Positions 4,781 through 13,103 of a DNA stretch of 64,000 nt are shown piece by piece. Source of the DNA: an uncultured Caulobacterales bacterium (GTDB taxonomy: Bacteria; Pseudomonadota; Alphaproteobacteria; Caulobacterales; Caulobacteraceae). The DNA lies in NCBI GenBank assembly GCA_903858185.1, contig CAIOHT010000012.1, positions 163,873 through 227,872 of the forward strand, read 5' to 3'. The translations under genes were made by a program, and so were the position numbers. Under the pieces are notes generated by a model. It did no database searches and had not been told where the DNA came from. It was given only the letters and a program-made list of their open reading frames with translations. Every line of letters begins with the position of its first letter. Positions within the stretch are counted from its first letter, which is position 1.

Positions 4781-4806
4781 AACGGTCAGGGCGCCCTGCA
4801 TGTTCC
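4781..4806 (-). promoter_or_regulatory. EcfG-type promoter for the lipid kinase-phosphoesterase operon
   Basis: On the minus strand GGAAC (4806-4802), a 17-base spacer and CGTT (4784-4781) match the consensus. It is almost back to back with the plus-strand promoter at 4813. Confidence 0.85.
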
Positions 4807-4812
4807 GTTCAT

Positions 4813-4837
4813 GGAACCCGAAGCGAGCCCGAACGTT
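4813..4837 (+). promoter_or_regulatory. EcfG-type promoter for the lipoprotein pair
   Basis: GGAAC (4813-4817), a 16-base spacer and CGTT (4834-4837) match the consensus exactly. The first lipoprotein ATG is 25 bases after the -10 element, so the leader should be short. Confidence 0.85.
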
Positions 4838-4861: not shown

Positions 4862-5107
4862 ATGCACAGGACTCTTGTCGCGCTGGCGGGCGGCGGCCTC
4901 ATCACGGCGGCCTGCGCCTCCACCGGACAAGCCGGGCACGGCGTCATCCCCGTCGCTGCCGACGCACCCGCAGACTGTCGCCTGGCGGATAAATGGGTCG
5001 CTGGGCCGCTGCTGACCGGGCTCCAGTTTCCCGATAGTCTAATCGACCGGTACTCCTGTTTCGATCCGGCGTTCGACGAGGTCGTCGACCGCCCCTTTTT
5101 GGTCTGA
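4862..5107 (+). CDS. small putative lipoprotein of unknown function
   Basis: The 81-residue product begins MHRTLVALAGGGLITAAC, a lipoprotein signal with a lipobox-like TAAC near residue 18. The mature part contains two further cysteines (ADCRLADKW and RYSCFDPAF), which could form a disulfide in the periplasm. It ends DEVVDRPFLV. I do not recognise a family. GAGGAGC precedes the ATG at a good distance. It lies 25 bases after an exact EcfG promoter and 10 bases before the OmpA-like lipoprotein gene, so the two are probably co-transcribed as a stress-induced envelope unit. Confidence 0.75.
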   Translation: MHRTLVALAGGGLITAACASTGQAGHGVIPVAADAPADCRLADKWVAGPLLTGLQFPDSLIDRYSCFDPAFDEVVDRPFLV

Positions 5108-5117
5108 GGGTTGGGTA

Positions 5118-5558
5118 ATGAACAGAACTTCGAAACTGGCCGTGCTGGGCGCGGCCGCAATGATGCTCAGCGGCTGTGGGACCCTGAGCGGGCTTGGGCG
5201 GGTCAAGACGCCCAATGTCTGCCAGGATCTGACGGTGTCGATCTATTTCGAGCGGGATTCCGCTGCGATCACCCGCGAGGCGCAGGCGGTGCTGAAGGGC
5301 GCTGGCGACATGACGAGGGGCTGCACCCTCGGCCAGGTCGACGTGACGGGTCTGGCGGACTCGGTCGGCGATCCGGCAGCCAATCTGGTCCTGTCGCGGA
5401 AGCGGGCGGAGACGGTTCGCAAGGCGGTTGCCCGTCTCGGCTTCTCAACGGTGAACTTTGAAGTCGATGCGGTGGGCGAAAAGGGCGCGGTAACGGCCTC
5501 GGGCGCGGACCGGCCCCTGCGTCGACGGACCGACGTCACGTTCCGCCTGTCTCGCTAG
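5118..5558 (+). CDS. OmpA-like peptidoglycan-binding lipoprotein
   Basis: The 146-residue protein has a lipoprotein signal (LAVLGAAAMMLSGC, cysteine near residue 20), then a compact OmpA/MotB-type domain from about residue 38 to the end: VSIYFERDSAAIT, VDVTGLADSVGDPAANLVLSRKRAETVRKAV and RRRTDVTFRL. Such domains bind diaminopimelate in peptidoglycan, so it should tether the outer membrane to the wall. The usual G.(T/A)D..G segment reads GLADSVGDP, and the Arg of the SRKRAETVR helix is present. It is second in the EcfG-driven pair that begins at 4862. Confidence 0.88.
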   Translation: MNRTSKLAVLGAAAMMLSGCGTLSGLGRVKTPNVCQDLTVSIYFERDSAAITREAQAVLKGAGDMTRGCTLGQVDVTGLADSVGDPAANLVLSRKRAETVRKAVARLGFSTVNFEVDAVGEKGAVTASGADRPLRRRTDVTFRLSR

Positions 5559-5561
5559 ACC

Positions 5562-5684
5562 GACAAAAAACAGGGGGCGGACGCGGGGTCCGCCCCCTGA
5601 AGGTTCGCATCGGGACGGGGTGCGGAGGCGACAGGCTGGCTTTCACCAGCCTCAAGTCGGGGGGGGCGTCGCCGCCTCCGCAAT
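5562..5684 (-). ncRNA. candidate EcfG-dependent small RNA with C8 loop (GsrN-like)
   Basis: No convincing protein is encoded between 5559 and 5786, but the minus strand has a full sRNA architecture. An exact EcfG promoter ends at 5690. The predicted transcript starts near 5684. A 5' stem (TGCGGAGGCG, 5682-5673, pairing with CGCCTCCGCA, 5630-5621) encloses eight consecutive C residues (5666-5659) and a perfect inner hairpin (AGGCTGG and CCAGCCT around TGAAAG, 5653-5634). After a short linker a strong terminator hairpin (5599-5571) is followed by TTTTTT. The predicted length is about 120 nt. Caulobacter GsrN is a SigT-controlled sRNA of similar size that uses a C-rich exposed loop on targets such as katG. 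The architecture matches, but homology is not demonstrated here. Confidence 0.7.
5564..5599 (-). terminator. intrinsic terminator of the candidate sRNA
   Basis: CAGGGGGCGGA (plus strand 5571-5581) and TCCGCCCCCTG (5589-5599) form an 11-bp stem with a 7-base loop. The minus strand continues as a run of T residues (complement of 5570-5565). The poly-T side shows the terminator works for minus-strand transcripts, although the hairpin may also stop the OmpA-like transcript. Confidence 0.85.
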
Positions 5685-5689
5685 TCAAT

Positions 5690-5715
5690 AACGTGGCGAC
5701 CCGCCATTCCGTTCC
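5690..5715 (-). promoter_or_regulatory. EcfG-type promoter driving the candidate sRNA
   Basis: On the minus strand GGAAC (5715-5711), a 17-base spacer and CGTT (5693-5690) match the EcfG consensus. It lies beyond the 3' end of phyR and faces no protein-coding gene, which is the main reason to look for an RNA product. Confidence 0.85.
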
Positions 5716-5786: not shown

Positions 5787-6578
5787 TCAGGCCGCCCTGG
5801 CGGTGCGGCCCGGATGGAAGAACAGGGCCTGGCCGATCGCCGCCTTCACCGTTTCCGGCTGGAAGGGCCTGGTGATCAGGAAGGTCGGCTCCGGCCGCTC
5901 ACCTGTGAGCAGCCGTTCCGGGAAGGCGGTGATGAAGATCACCGGGACGTCGTAATGACCCAGGATGTCCTTGACCGCGTCGATGCCTGACGAACCATCG
6001 GCCAGCTGGATGTCCGCAAGCACCAGACCCGGCGCCTTGCGGGCGACGACCTCGACCGCTTCGGTGCGGGTCGCGGCAATGTCGACCACGGTGTGACCGA
6101 GCTCGCGCACCAGCGCCTCGATATCGGCGGCAATGACCGGCTCATCCTCGATGATCAGGACATCGGTCGCCAGCTCGGCGTCGATTTCCGTCTGGGCCTG
6201 GGAGATCAGCCGTTCGACGTCCGGAAAGTCGGTGTCGAGGACCTGCGCCGTTTCGCTGGGCGTGAACCCTTCGAGCGCGGTCAGAAGGAAGGCCTGGCGC
6301 GAGCGCGGGGCGATGCGCATCAGTCGCTGGCTGGCGTCCTGACCGTCGCCCGGCGTGCGGTCTTCCAGCTTCGCGCCGGAGGTGCACCAGATGGCGTGGA
6401 ACACATGATAGAGCGCGACGCGCGGCGAGAGCCGGCTGTCGAGCTGCTTTTCGCCGGCCGCCAGAGCTTCAAGCGCAACCCGTACATACTGGTCGCCGGT
6501 CGACTGGCTCCCCGTAAGCGCCCGTGCGTATCGACGCATGTAGGGCAGGTGCGGCGCCAGACGAGCAAGAAGACTCAT
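5787..6578 (-). CDS. phyR: general stress response regulator PhyR (anti-anti-sigma factor)
   Basis: The 263-residue protein has the diagnostic PhyR layout: an N-terminal sigma-factor-like domain (residues 1-135, no DNA-binding role expected) and a C-terminal receiver (about 138-258). The receiver shows IIEDEP (acidic pocket, residues 144-145), VLADIQLADG (phospho-Asp 189) and FITAFPE (Thr 217). The usual conserved Lys before Pro is an Arg here (LITRPF, residue 237). When phosphorylated, PhyR binds NepR and frees EcfG. It is divergent from nepR-ecfG with 229 bases between the start codons, and both sides carry exact EcfG promoters, giving autoactivation. Length and arrangement match Caulobacter PhyR. 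Confidence 0.97.
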   Translation of the reverse strand: MSLLARLAPHLPYMRRYARALTGSQSTGDQYVRVALEALAAGEKQLDSRLSPRVALYHVFHAIWCTSGAKLEDRTPGDGQDASQRLMRIAPRSRQAFLLTALEGFTPSETAQVLDTDFPDVERLISQAQTEIDAELATDVLIIEDEPVIAADIEALVRELGHTVVDIAATRTEAVEVVARKAPGLVLADIQLADGSSGIDAVKDILGHYDVPVIFITAFPERLLTGERPEPTFLITRPFQPETVKAAIGQALFFHPGRTARAA

Positions 6579-6660: not shown

Positions 6661-6685
6661 AACGCGTCGGAACGGCAGTGGTTCC
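6661..6685 (-). promoter_or_regulatory. EcfG-type promoter for phyR
   Basis: On the minus strand GGAAC (6685-6681), a 16-base spacer and CGTT (6664-6661) match the consensus. The -10 lies 83 bases before the phyR start. The -35 box is embedded in a palindrome, GTTCCCGGAAC (6681-6691). Confidence 0.9.
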
Positions 6686-6726: not shown

Positions 6727-6751
6727 GGAACCAGGTGCGGGATCGGGCGTT
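6727..6751 (+). promoter_or_regulatory. EcfG-type promoter for nepR-ecfG-phyK
   Basis: GGAAC (6727-6731), a 16-base spacer and CGTT (6748-6751) match the consensus. The -10 lies 56 bases before the nepR ATG. As with the phyR promoter, the -35 sits in a palindromic stretch, GTTCCGGGAAC (6721-6731). Confidence 0.9.
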
Positions 6752-6807
6752 CAACGGCCCGAGTCACAGTTCCAGAGAGGGGGCGGGCATGTCGCCGCGC
6801 CGATATC

Positions 6808-6993
6808 ATGATCGATCAAAGTCCCATGGATGAACGTCGGAAGGGAACGGCCCCGCTCGACGAGGCGAGGCTGCGGCAACGGGCGATCGGCGTAAAACTG
6901 CGCCAGATGTTCGATGACGTGGTCAACGAGCCCGTGCCCGACGAGTTTCTCGAAATCCTGCGCAAGGCTGATGGCAAGAACGGTGAGGGCTAG
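6808..6993 (+). CDS. nepR: anti-sigma factor NepR
   Basis: The 61-residue cytosolic protein contains the NepR core IGVKLRQMFDDVVNEPVPDEF (about residues 27-47), which wraps around EcfG domains or, after PhyR phosphorylation, around PhyR. A disordered charged N-terminus (DQSPMDERRKG) is typical. It lies immediately upstream of ecfG, with the stop codon adjacent to the ecfG start, so stoichiometry is probably set by coupled translation. It is transcribed from the EcfG promoter at 6727, a built-in negative feedback loop. Confidence 0.96.
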   Translation: MIDQSPMDERRKGTAPLDEARLRQRAIGVKLRQMFDDVVNEPVPDEFLEILRKADGKNGEG

Positions 6994-7605
6994 ATGGGCC
7001 CCTCACCGGACGTCGCGCAGACCCTCCTGGAAGGAACGGCCCGCGACCAGGTGTTCCAGCGCGAGCTAGTCGCCCTCATTCCGCATCTGCGCGCCTTCGC
7101 CAGAACCCTGACCGGCGATGCGACCCAGGCCGACGACCTGGCGCAGGACGCCATGATCAAGGCGTGGGACGCCCGGGCCAGCTTCCAGCTCGGCACCAAC
7201 ATGAAGGCCTGGACCTTCATGATCCTGCGCAACCAGTTCTATTCCGACAAACGCCGGTCGTGGCGCTCGACCCAACTCGACCAGGAAGCCGCCGAGCGCA
7301 CGCTGGTGGCCGTTGACGACCCCGGGGCCCCCCTCGCCCTCGACGAGTTGCGGCTGGCCATGAGCATGCTGCCCTCCGAGCAGCGCGAAGCGCTGATCCT
7401 GGTGGGCGCAGGCGGCTTTGCCTACGAAGAGGCTGCGGACATCTGTGGCTGCGCCGTCGGCACCGTGAAGAGCCGTGTCAGTCGGGCCCGCAAGGCCCTC
7501 CAGGGCATCCTCGAAACCGGAGCCTACGATCGTGACGGCCGTGGGGCCGGCGATGCGATGCGCTCGATCCTCGCCGATGCGGAGCGGTTGAGCGCCGTCC
7601 GGTGA
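6994..7605 (+). CDS. ecfG: ECF sigma factor EcfG (SigT)
   Basis: The 203-residue protein has sigma region 2 (about residues 25-95; DDLAQDAMIKAWDARASF and AWTFMILRNQFYSDKRRS) and sigma region 4 (about 120-175; LPSEQREALILVGAGGFAYEEAA with the helix-turn-helix VGTVKSRVSRARKAL). Its position directly after nepR and before a PhyK-like kinase, divergent from phyR, is the canonical EcfG/SigT locus of Caulobacterales. It should direct polymerase to the GGAAC-N16/17-CGTT promoters scattered through the surrounding 8 kb. The stop overlaps the start of the kinase gene (GTGA). The tail beyond region 4 (about 30 residues) is a little long but not unusual. Confidence 0.96.
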   Translation: MGPSPDVAQTLLEGTARDQVFQRELVALIPHLRAFARTLTGDATQADDLAQDAMIKAWDARASFQLGTNMKAWTFMILRNQFYSDKRRSWRSTQLDQEAAERTLVAVDDPGAPLALDELRLAMSMLPSEQREALILVGAGGFAYEEAADICGCAVGTVKSRVSRARKALQGILETGAYDRDGRGAGDAMRSILADAERLSAVR

Positions 7606-9308
7606 GATTGTTCGACCGGTTGCGGTGGGGGGCCGCGACCACGATCCGGGTCAGGCTGGGCGTCGCCATGGCGCTCGCCCTTGTACCGGTGCTCCTCCTG
7701 GGCGCCGGTCAGTCGGTGCTCGCCTATCAGCGGGAATCCGCTGACCGGCAGGCTGTCCTGCAATCAGCCGCCGAGCGCAGTGCGGCGACGGCCCGCGCCA
7801 GGATGGAGGCCGCCGGTGTCCTGCTCGAGACTCTCGGCCCCGGCGCCATCGGCATGGACTGCTCGCGCCGACTGGCCGACATCCAGAAGCGGCTTCCGGG
7901 CTATGCCAACCTGATCCGCTTTGACGGCATCGGGCGCGTGGCCTGTTCGGCCCAGAGCGTTCCTGCCGACGCCACGCGCCGTGACCGGGACTGGTTCCGC
8001 CGCCTGCGGGCCGGCGAGGCGATGGTCGTGACCCTGACGCCGGGCGCACGATACGCGGCCGAGCCCAGCCTGTTCACGGCGACCGGATCGCGGGACCGGG
8101 TGTCCGGCTTCGGCGTGCTGGCGGCGGTCATTCCCCTGTCCAGCCTGCAGCCGACGCCGGAGGAGAGAACCCTGCCGGCGGGCGCGCAGGTCGCCGTCGT
8201 CGACCGCGGGGGCCGGATCCTGTCGATTACCGATCGCCAGGCCTTCCCCCCGGCGATGAAATCCTGGGTCGACCGCGTCGCCGTCAGGGGCTCCTACCTG
8301 GGTTATGGCCCGGACGGGCGCGGCGTGCGCCGGGTCTACTCGGCCGCGCCGCTGGTCGGTGACAGTCTGTTCGTCGTGCTCTCGGCGCCGTCGGCGGACC
8401 TGTTCTCGAGCGACTGGCTGGATCCGCTGTCCGGCATCGTCTTCCCGCTGGCCGCCTTCATCGTCGCCCTGATGGCGGTCTTCTTCGCGGCGGAGCGGGT
8501 GGTCGGGCGCTGGATCGTCTATCTGCAGCGGATCGCGGCGATCTACGCCCGCGGCCGGTTTTCCGTCCGGCCGCTGCAGGCCGAGCGGGTGCCGCCGGAA
8601 ATCCGCGAGCTGGCGGAGACGCTCGATCATATGGCCGCGACGATCGTCGCGCGCGACGCGGCCCTGCACGAAAACCTGGACCAGAAGGACGCGCTGATGC
8701 GCGAGATCCACCACCGTGTGAAGAACAACCTGCAGGTCATCAGCTCGCTGCTGAGCATGCAGGAGCGCGCGTTGGCAGACCCGGCGGCGCGGGCCGCGAT
8801 GAGCGACACGCGCCAGCGGATCACGGCCCTGGCGCTGATCTACAGGGCCCTCTACCAGGGGCTCGACATCAAGCACGTCGATCTCAAGCCGTTCCTGGAA
8901 GACCTGATCGGCCAGCTGCTGGCGGCGGACGTCGGCGTCGGTTACATCCGCACCGAGGTGCGGGCCGACAGGCTGGCGATCGATCCTGACAAGCTTGCGC
9001 CGCTCGCGCTGTTCGCGGTCGAAGCGGTGACAAACGCACAGAAGCACGCGCTGCAGAACGGCGGCGGGACCCTGACCGTCGATTTCACCCTGCGCGACGG
9101 CCAGGCCGAACTGGCGATCGCGGACGATGGCGGCGGCGGCGCGGCGGCGCCCGTCGAGGCGGCAAGGACCGCCGGTGTCGGCCGCACCCTGATGAACGCC
9201 TTCGCCCGCCAGTTGCGCGGCAGGACGACCCTGGAGCCGAACACGATCGGCGGCCTCACGGCCCGCCTGGTGTTTCCGATGCCCGAAGCGCCCGGCGCAG
9301 GAACCTGA
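7602..9308 (+). CDS. phyK: PhyK-like sensor histidine kinase
   Basis: The 568-residue protein has a first membrane helix (about residues 17-38), a roughly 240-residue periplasmic sensor, a second helix (about 280-303), a HAMP-like linker, a HisKA_2 dimerisation domain with EIHHRVKNNLQVISSLL (phospho-His near 371) and a HATPase domain with AVEAVTNAQKHAL and ADDGGGG. HisKA_2/HWE kinases next to phyR-nepR-ecfG are the direct activators of PhyR; in C. crescentus phyK occupies the same place. The GTG start overlaps the ecfG stop, so it belongs to the nepR operon. The sensed signal cannot be read from the sequence. The last codons contain a promoter for the downstream entericidin gene. Confidence 0.9.
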   Translation: MRLFDRLRWGAATTIRVRLGVAMALALVPVLLLGAGQSVLAYQRESADRQAVLQSAAERSAATARARMEAAGVLLETLGPGAIGMDCSRRLADIQKRLPGYANLIRFDGIGRVACSAQSVPADATRRDRDWFRRLRAGEAMVVTLTPGARYAAEPSLFTATGSRDRVSGFGVLAAVIPLSSLQPTPEERTLPAGAQVAVVDRGGRILSITDRQAFPPAMKSWVDRVAVRGSYLGYGPDGRGVRRVYSAAPLVGDSLFVVLSAPSADLFSSDWLDPLSGIVFPLAAFIVALMAVFFAAERVVGRWIVYLQRIAAIYARGRFSVRPLQAERVPPEIRELAETLDHMAATIVARDAALHENLDQKDALMREIHHRVKNNLQVISSLLSMQERALADPAARAAMSDTRQRITALALIYRALYQGLDIKHVDLKPFLEDLIGQLLAADVGVGYIRTEVRADRLAIDPDKLAPLALFAVEAVTNAQKHALQNGGGTLTVDFTLRDGQAELAIADDGGGGAAAPVEAARTAGVGRTLMNAFARQLRGRTTLEPNTIGGLTARLVFPMPEAPGAGT

Positions 9309-9324
9309 AGGCGCACAAGGCGTT
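9300..9324 (+). promoter_or_regulatory. EcfG-type promoter overlapping the phyK stop codon
   Basis: GGAAC (9300-9304), a 16-base spacer and CGTT (9321-9324) match exactly. The -35 lies in the last codons of the kinase gene. The entericidin ATG is 53 bases after the -10. Confidence 0.8.
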
Positions 9325-12353: not shown

Positions 12354-13103
12354 CTAGGGCGCGACCTCCGCCCCGAATGCCGCCACATCCTCGATCAGCG
12401 CCTTCGCCGCAAGGGCCACCAGCTCTCCGCCCTTTTCCGGCGTCGCGAGCGCCGGATCGGAGCCCATGCGGCCGTCAGCGTAGCGGGCGCGGAAATCGAG
12501 GGCCTCGCGGATCGGGCCGGTGGGGGCGATCTGCGGGGCGTAGCTCGCGGTCTTGATCGCGTCCGGATAGGCCCACTGTGTCACGGCGATCTCCGAGGGC
12601 GTGGCGTGGCTGCCGTGGCCGACCGGGAACTGGCGATTGGCGAGGCCGTTGACGCCCGACAGGTCCCACCAGTTCTTCAGCTTGCAGGCAAAGCCGCGTG
12701 GCTTTCCGGCGAAGCTGGCCTCGGCGTAGAGCTCGCTGAACGCCGCCTCGATGGTGTGGACGTTGCCGCCGTGGCCATTGAGGAAATAGATTTTCGTGAA
12801 GCCGTGCCCCGCCAGCGACCGGCACCAGTCACCGATCGCCGCCATGAAGGTCGAGGGCCGCAGGCTGATCGTGCCGGGGAAGCCGAGGTGATGCTGCGCC
12901 ATGCCTATGTTGAAGGTCGGGGCGATCAAGAGGTCGTCGCGACCCTTCTGCGCCTCGATGGCGATGATCTCCGGGCACATCCAGTCAGTGCCGAGCAGGC
13001 CGGTCGGGCCATGCTGTTCGTTCGAGCCGATCGGCACGACAACCGTCCTGGACCGTTGAAGGAAGGCCTCGATCTCGGGCCAGGTGGATTTGGCGAGCAA
13101 CAT
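12354..13103 (-). CDS. creatininase family protein (metal-dependent amidohydrolase)
   Basis: The 249-residue protein has the family motif [15 protein letters not shown] with the metal ligands Glu, His and Asp, [11 protein letters not shown] with further ligands, and GSHATPSE. Family members include creatinine amidohydrolase, formamide hydrolases of flavin/riboflavin pathways and the mycofactocin peptidase; the true substrate is unknown. The ATG at 13103 is preferred to an upstream in-frame start because GGGAG sits just before it and the preceding residues (Cys/Arg-rich) look untranslated. It is divergent from acs with an 83-base gap. Confidence 0.88.

Follow-up and report, generated by a model that had tools for sequence, protein, structure and literature searches.

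Which product is made from an exact EcfG-type promoter that has no conserved protein gene downstream is the question raised by a locus next to phyR in the genome of an uncultured Caulobacterales bacterium; the window, i.e., the whole stretch of DNA that was analysed, has a length of 64,000 nucleotides. A preliminary description had proposed an unannotated small RNA similar to Caulobacter GsrN. The promoter on the minus strand is as it had been described, with GGAAC (5715-5711) and CGTT (5693-5690) separated by a spacer of 17 nt. In the window the motif GGAAC-N16/17-CGTT is present at 12 exact sites in comparison to 0.64 expected, a number reached by none of 100 shuffles, and therefore the EcfG-type motif is a real signal in this DNA; its sites are directed at gsrN, phyR and nepR-ecfG.

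A folding energy of -65.1 kcal/mol and a z-score of -5.16 were obtained for the 117 nt from 5682 down to 5566, and none of 200 shuffles is as good. The predicted structure begins with a 5' stem around the C8 loop; an internal hairpin and a linker follow, and a terminator with T6 closes it. As previously proposed, the eight cytosines (5666-5659) are enclosed by the 5' stem, in a loop of 18 nt (5670-5653, minus strand) that is predicted to be unpaired, and the terminator stem ends in T6 at 5570-5565. The internal hairpin, GGCUGGU-GAAA-GCCAGCC, had been called a perfect 7-bp hairpin, which is correct if G-U is counted, whereas strictly it contains 6 Watson-Crick pairs and one U-G. The covariance search that had been suggested gave a full-length match to the Rfam family RF01529 (CC3552), at 5679-5575 on the minus strand, covering model positions 1-106 of 106 with 82.8 bits (gathering score, 50 bits); it is the single RF01529 match in the genome of the window organism. 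The look-alike families sX14, Xoo2 and suhB of Rfam each scored under their own gathering score and were discarded. With the 5' end placed at 5681 by homology with published GsrN, the region 5681-5565 has the appearance of a genuine small-RNA gene, and its features and those of its neighbours are collected in Table 1.

Table 1. Position of gsrN, its parts, its neighbours and the EcfG-type promoters of the locus in window coordinates.
Feature	Position	Strand	Basis
gsrN, small RNA of about 117 nt	5565..5681	-	GsrN orthologue; match to Rfam RF01529 CC3552
gsrN promoter, EcfG-type GGAAC-N17-CGTT	5690..5715	-	motif and conservation
C8 tract in 5' loop, GACGCCCCCCCCGACUUG	5659..5666	-	putative target-pairing site; fold, C-run conservation
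Internal hairpin, GAAA loop	5634..5651	-	fold and two-sided changes
Linker stretch, GUCCCGAUGCG	5606..5616	-	perfect 11-nt complement of own katG leader, -23 to -13; weak
Intrinsic terminator, GC-rich stem and T6 (5570-5565)	5565..5599	-	fold and two-sided changes
OmpA-like gene, convergent with gsrN	5118..5558	+	PF00691
phyR, directly upstream of gsrN, same strand	5787..6578	-	Pfam PhyR domains; NF006623 over cut-off
EcfG-type promoter toward phyR	6661..6685	-	motif match
EcfG-type promoter toward nepR-ecfG	6727..6751	+	motif match
GGGGGCG in nepR leader, candidate GsrN site	6779..6785	+	complementary to loop CGCCCCC; putative function
nepR, anti-sigma factor	6808..6993	+	PF18557
ecfG, general-stress sigma factor	6994..7605	+	Sigma-70 domains

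A pattern scan of genomes retrieved at least 119 loci; two of them, L079 (with the title Methylobacteriaceae) and L147, match the pattern without the C-run form, look like chance and were left out of the alignment and of the promoter counts. Among the matches listed, 80 locus titles are chiefly Caulobacter, Phenylobacterium, Brevundimonas and other Caulobacteraceae, and a few are vaguer. The length of the C-run among the 117 loci listed is 6 (7 loci), 7 (54), 8 (51), 9 (2) or 10 (3). This variation bears on the possibility that the region is a small protein gene, since two ORFs that overlap the RNA do exist mechanically, one of 70 aa (5767-5555, minus strand) and one of 50 aa (5688-5536, minus strand). 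The 70-aa ORF begins upstream of the gsrN promoter, and changes of the C-run by single bases, from 6 to 10 in the 117 loci listed, break any shared frame; for this reason the coding reading, which is exceedingly improbable, was rejected, and the claim that the promoter faces no protein gene is upheld in the sense that no conserved one follows it.

The predicted fold of the window RNA was mapped on 115 distinct sequences among the matches listed by means of a sequence-based alignment in which kinship is ignored. In these 115 listed sequences, 3187 of 3493 mapped cells pair (91.2%), and in particular 1265 of 1266 in the outer stem, 907 of 920 in the internal hairpin and 885 of 983 in the terminator, whose outermost pairs vary among relatives. 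The linker element of three pairs, with 130 of 324 cells paired, is left unsupported as a part of the fold. Two-sided changes were found in the same set at 23 of 35 pairs, or at 18 of 35 if each pair type has to be present in at least three sequences; they occur in the stem, the hairpin (6 of 8 pairs, counting the outer A-U) and the terminator (8 of 12 pairs). A chance hairpin close to a promoter-like match, from which no RNA is made, is scarcely credible: besides the fold statistics and the two-sided pair changes, on which it was rejected, the Rfam match and the conserved promoter argue against it.

RF01529 matches are present in 208 of 299 genomes of Caulobacteraceae (201 over the cut-off) and in 17 of 22 genera. 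The conservation of stem and C-tract, on which the preliminary description had made its proposal depend, is thus found both in these 208 genomes and in the nearly invariant outer stem of the matches listed. Caulobacter vibrioides is the only one of 14 control genomes with a match, and in an order-level sample of 299 genomes all the 52 matches come from the window's own family, so that the RNA looks family-confined at this sensitivity; passages of Tien et al. 2018 (PMC5869019) report that a BLASTn search likewise found GsrN limited to the family. The co-occurrence of the RNA and nepR in 298 genomes, with kinship ignored, gives 206 genomes with both, 2 with the RNA only, 34 with nepR only and 56 with neither. 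The RNA therefore travels with the stress switch, as 206 of the 208 genomes bearing gsrN also have nepR, while nepR without a gsrN match is seen, at this sensitivity, in 34 of 298 family genomes. Four genomes of group g3 (G151, G155, G159 and G204) have two RF01529 matches each, and in the first three the second match is weak (35-37 bits, under the cut-off); the second copy of this group is possibly a diverged paralogue.

Regarding its control, gsrN is preceded by GGAAC-N15..17-NGTT in 111 of the 113 loci with enough sequence among the matches listed, the exceptions being L074 and L105. Based on the motif and its conservation, EcfG is predicted to drive gsrN from 5715-5690. The distance between gsrN and the phyR stop is 105 nt. 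Of the 75 loci having at least 2.3 kb of upstream sequence among the matches listed, 73 have phyR upstream in the same orientation, with L054 and L109 as exceptions. The identity of ecfG is deduced from its place and the promoters, as none of the best 25 NCBIfam matches of its product is an equivalog above cut-off. A convergent OmpA-like gene lies no more than 400 nt from gsrN in 80 of the 117 loci among the matches listed; this partner was not found in 36 of the 117 listed, of which 16 are titled Brevundimonas and 4 have less than 700 nt of sequence downstream. The relocation of gsrN away from the switch, reported for C. crescentus, can be seen in G130, a six-C genome in which about 84 kb of a single contig separate gsrN and nepR; L036, with the title C. 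vibrioides, still has the OmpA-like partner, and no phyR is present in its 0.9 kb of available upstream sequence.

A divergent pair of EcfG-type promoters is located within 4781-4837: the one at 4781-4806 (minus strand) points at a lipid-kinase-like gene (3854 to about 4723) and the one at 4813-4837 (plus strand) at a small lipoprotein-like ORF (4862-5107) and the OmpA-like gene. Such sites were found upstream of the OmpA-like gene in 64 of 75 and 69 of 75 loci on the two strands, among the matches listed; the opposite strand, intended as a control, is equally rich in them. Their presence on both strands suggests that the stress island reaches beyond gsrN. Other exact matches are at 1227-1251, 2750-2774, 9300-9324 and 12626-12650, and the first 13 kb of the window contains 9 of the 12 exact sites.

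The relationship with GsrN can be evaluated on the basis of passages of Tien et al. 2018 (PMC5869019), which describe this RNA in Caulobacter, Brevundimonas and Phenylobacterium, typically near ecfG, nepR and phyR. In Caulobacter it is a SigT-driven small RNA numbered to 106, with six tandem cytosines in the 5' loop, processed near C53/T54 and T64 and tolerating a tag at position 37 (PMC5869019). The promoter type, the C-rich loop, the size and the place of the window RNA fit these passages, as had been anticipated, and the RF01529 model has a length of 106, equal to the last nucleotide number of published GsrN. In L007, a locus with six cytosines, 1 of 20 start offsets aligns C53, T54 and T64 of the published processing sites; this offset leaves 8 nt from CGTT to the start, the same spacing given by 5681 in the window, and puts position 37 inside the GAAA loop. 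Chance would be expected to give about 0.3 fits over 20 offsets, which makes this register weak if taken alone. RF01529 is concluded to correspond to GsrN, an equation drawn in this analysis from sequence features; no open-licence paper naming RF01529, or naming CC3552 together with a small RNA, was found. Taken as a whole, the best explanation, and one that can be held with high confidence, is that the RNA at 5681-5565 is the GsrN of the window organism. The term "unannotated" and the novelty that it implied do not stand, as the RNA scores well over the Rfam cut-off; they were overstated because GsrN orthologues near general-stress genes had already been reported for the family in passages of PMC5869019.

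In Caulobacter the C-loop of GsrN pairs with the katG leader, as demonstrated by exchange mutants in passages of PMC5869019, and the preliminary description had named katG among the mRNAs regulated by Caulobacter GsrN. In the window organism, whose genome contains katG once, only 6 paired bases to the C-loop are kept (GUCGGG, with an unremarkable shuffle fraction of 0.24); the role itself is not safely transferable to this organism, where the published katG site appears to be kept at most partly. A different contact could involve the linker, since the own katG leader carries CGCAUCGGGAC opposite 5616-5606 (locus L151); this match is reached by 0 of 100 own shuffles, in one of 58 tests, and is the longest among the 58 genomes tested. 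Runs at or under the 5% shuffle level were found in 6 of 73 genomes for the loop, and hence katG is no family-wide target by this test, and in 1 of 58 for the linker, a test from which 15 further genomes with an unplaced linker were left out; katG was discarded as a shared target on both results. The 8-nt GTCGGGGG is present in 6 genomes, all belonging to the window's genus group g1, and G130 and G077 have in the katG leader GTCGGGG, the published Caulobacter case.

Another candidate target is the leader of nepR, in which AGGGGGCGG begins 30 nt ahead of the start codon. GsrN might also pair with this G-run and alter NepR output, thus being a feedback arm as well as an output of the response, a proposal that must be considered tentative. 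GGGGGCG is found in 44 of 78 related nepR leaders in comparison to 11 of 297 control leaders (2 of 76 for ecfG, 3 of 82 for phyR, 4 of 75 for the OmpA-like gene and 2 of 64 for the kinase). Of the 78 nepR leaders, 39 have AGGGG beginning at -36 within their last 60 nt, 5 have it at -30, as in the window, and 22 lack it. G5 is present in 15 of 15 nepR leaders titled Caulobacter and in 15 of 17 titled Phenylobacterium, but is missing in 10 of 10 titled Brevundimonas, which carry gsrN; moreover, one of 8 family genomes that have nepR and no gsrN match contains GGGGGCG. When 2414 window tiles are ranked by pairing with the loop, the window's nepR leader (-70 to +10) falls within the top 0.6%, and the 30-nt tract taken alone within the top 2.4%. 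The median loop-pairing percentile of nepR leaders is 0.108 (78 loci), the others being 0.182 for phyR, whose leaders thus rank well too, 0.366 for the OmpA-like gene, 0.481 for ecfG and 0.623 for the kinase. In contrast, with dinucleotide shuffles a p of 0.05 or below is obtained by 3% of the 78 nepR leaders versus 16% for ecfG and 16% for phyR, and a first test with a shorter loop, devoid of the leading GACG, gave no excess; the second test used the whole loop, a choice changed after the first result had been seen.

The published data also point in both directions, since nepR and sigT mRNAs co-purify with GsrN in Caulobacter (PMC5869019, Table 1), but in passages of the same paper the sigma-T reporter is unaffected by gsrN loss or overexpression, with no evidence of SigT/NepR regulation. 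Furthermore, AGGGGG can also bind the ribosome, and such a role could account for the frequency of GGGGGCG in nepR leaders. Caulobacter-type nepR leaders carry GAGGAC immediately ahead of the start codon, so that the G-run could serve a second role; where a GAGGAC-like site is missing, the G-run may be the ribosome site itself. In many nepR leaders a single-sequence fold gives a hairpin between the G-run and the start codon, and these folds vary. In the window AGGGGGCGG also precedes a short ORF (6789-6833), which is out of frame with nepR and overlaps its start; the ATG at 6789 is missing in some relatives. A doubtful proposal is that GGGGGCG, positionally conserved in Caulobacter, Phenylobacterium and the window's clade, could mediate an RNA feedback on NepR missed by sigma-reporter tests.

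The mechanism that can be proposed starts from the release of EcfG from NepR under stress, after which EcfG would transcribe gsrN from its conserved motif. The transcript would fold, as fold and covariation support, into a 5' stem holding open the C-rich loop, followed by the linker and the terminator. The C-loop, and possibly the linker, would then pair with G-rich segments close to the start of mRNAs related to stress and so alter their translation or stability, as shown by others for Caulobacter katG (passages of PMC5869019). Processing in the linker might generate a stable 5' form, by analogy with Caulobacter, for which an EcfG-dependent transcript, an Hfq effect and processing to a stable 5' form are described in passages of PMC5869019. 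The locus lends support to the idea that a conserved RNA output stands beside the protein core in the general stress response of the family. The wider interest of the window gsrN lies in the nepR lead; of the two leads, nepR and the katG linker, neither is proven. If the nepR pairing were true, the RNA would serve as feedback in addition to being an output, and the published negative result would be reopened, with a specific site to mutate.

Among known systems, GsrN of Caulobacter crescentus (ccna_R0081), as described in passages of PMC5869019, shares with the window RNA the EcfG/SigT-type promoter, the 5' stem, the exposed C-rich loop and the terminator, together with the numbered length of 106 and the proximity to stress genes reported for most of the family. 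The differences from these passages concern the C-run, which is C8 in the window and six cytosines in C. crescentus, the position of the gene, which adjoins phyR in the window whereas it is reported as distal in C. crescentus, the pairing with katG, which appears to be kept at most in part, and the sequences of linker and terminator. The putative GsrN-like RNAs of Rhizobiaceae, which according to passages of PMC5869019 have an EcfG site, lie near the stress locus and expose a C-rich loop, are likened to the window RNA by description only. In the comparison with RF01529 (CC3552), matched over its full length and over the gathering score, no defining difference from the window RNA was found. The window RNA is not a new RNA and belongs to the described family GsrN, being an ordinary member for Caulobacteraceae.
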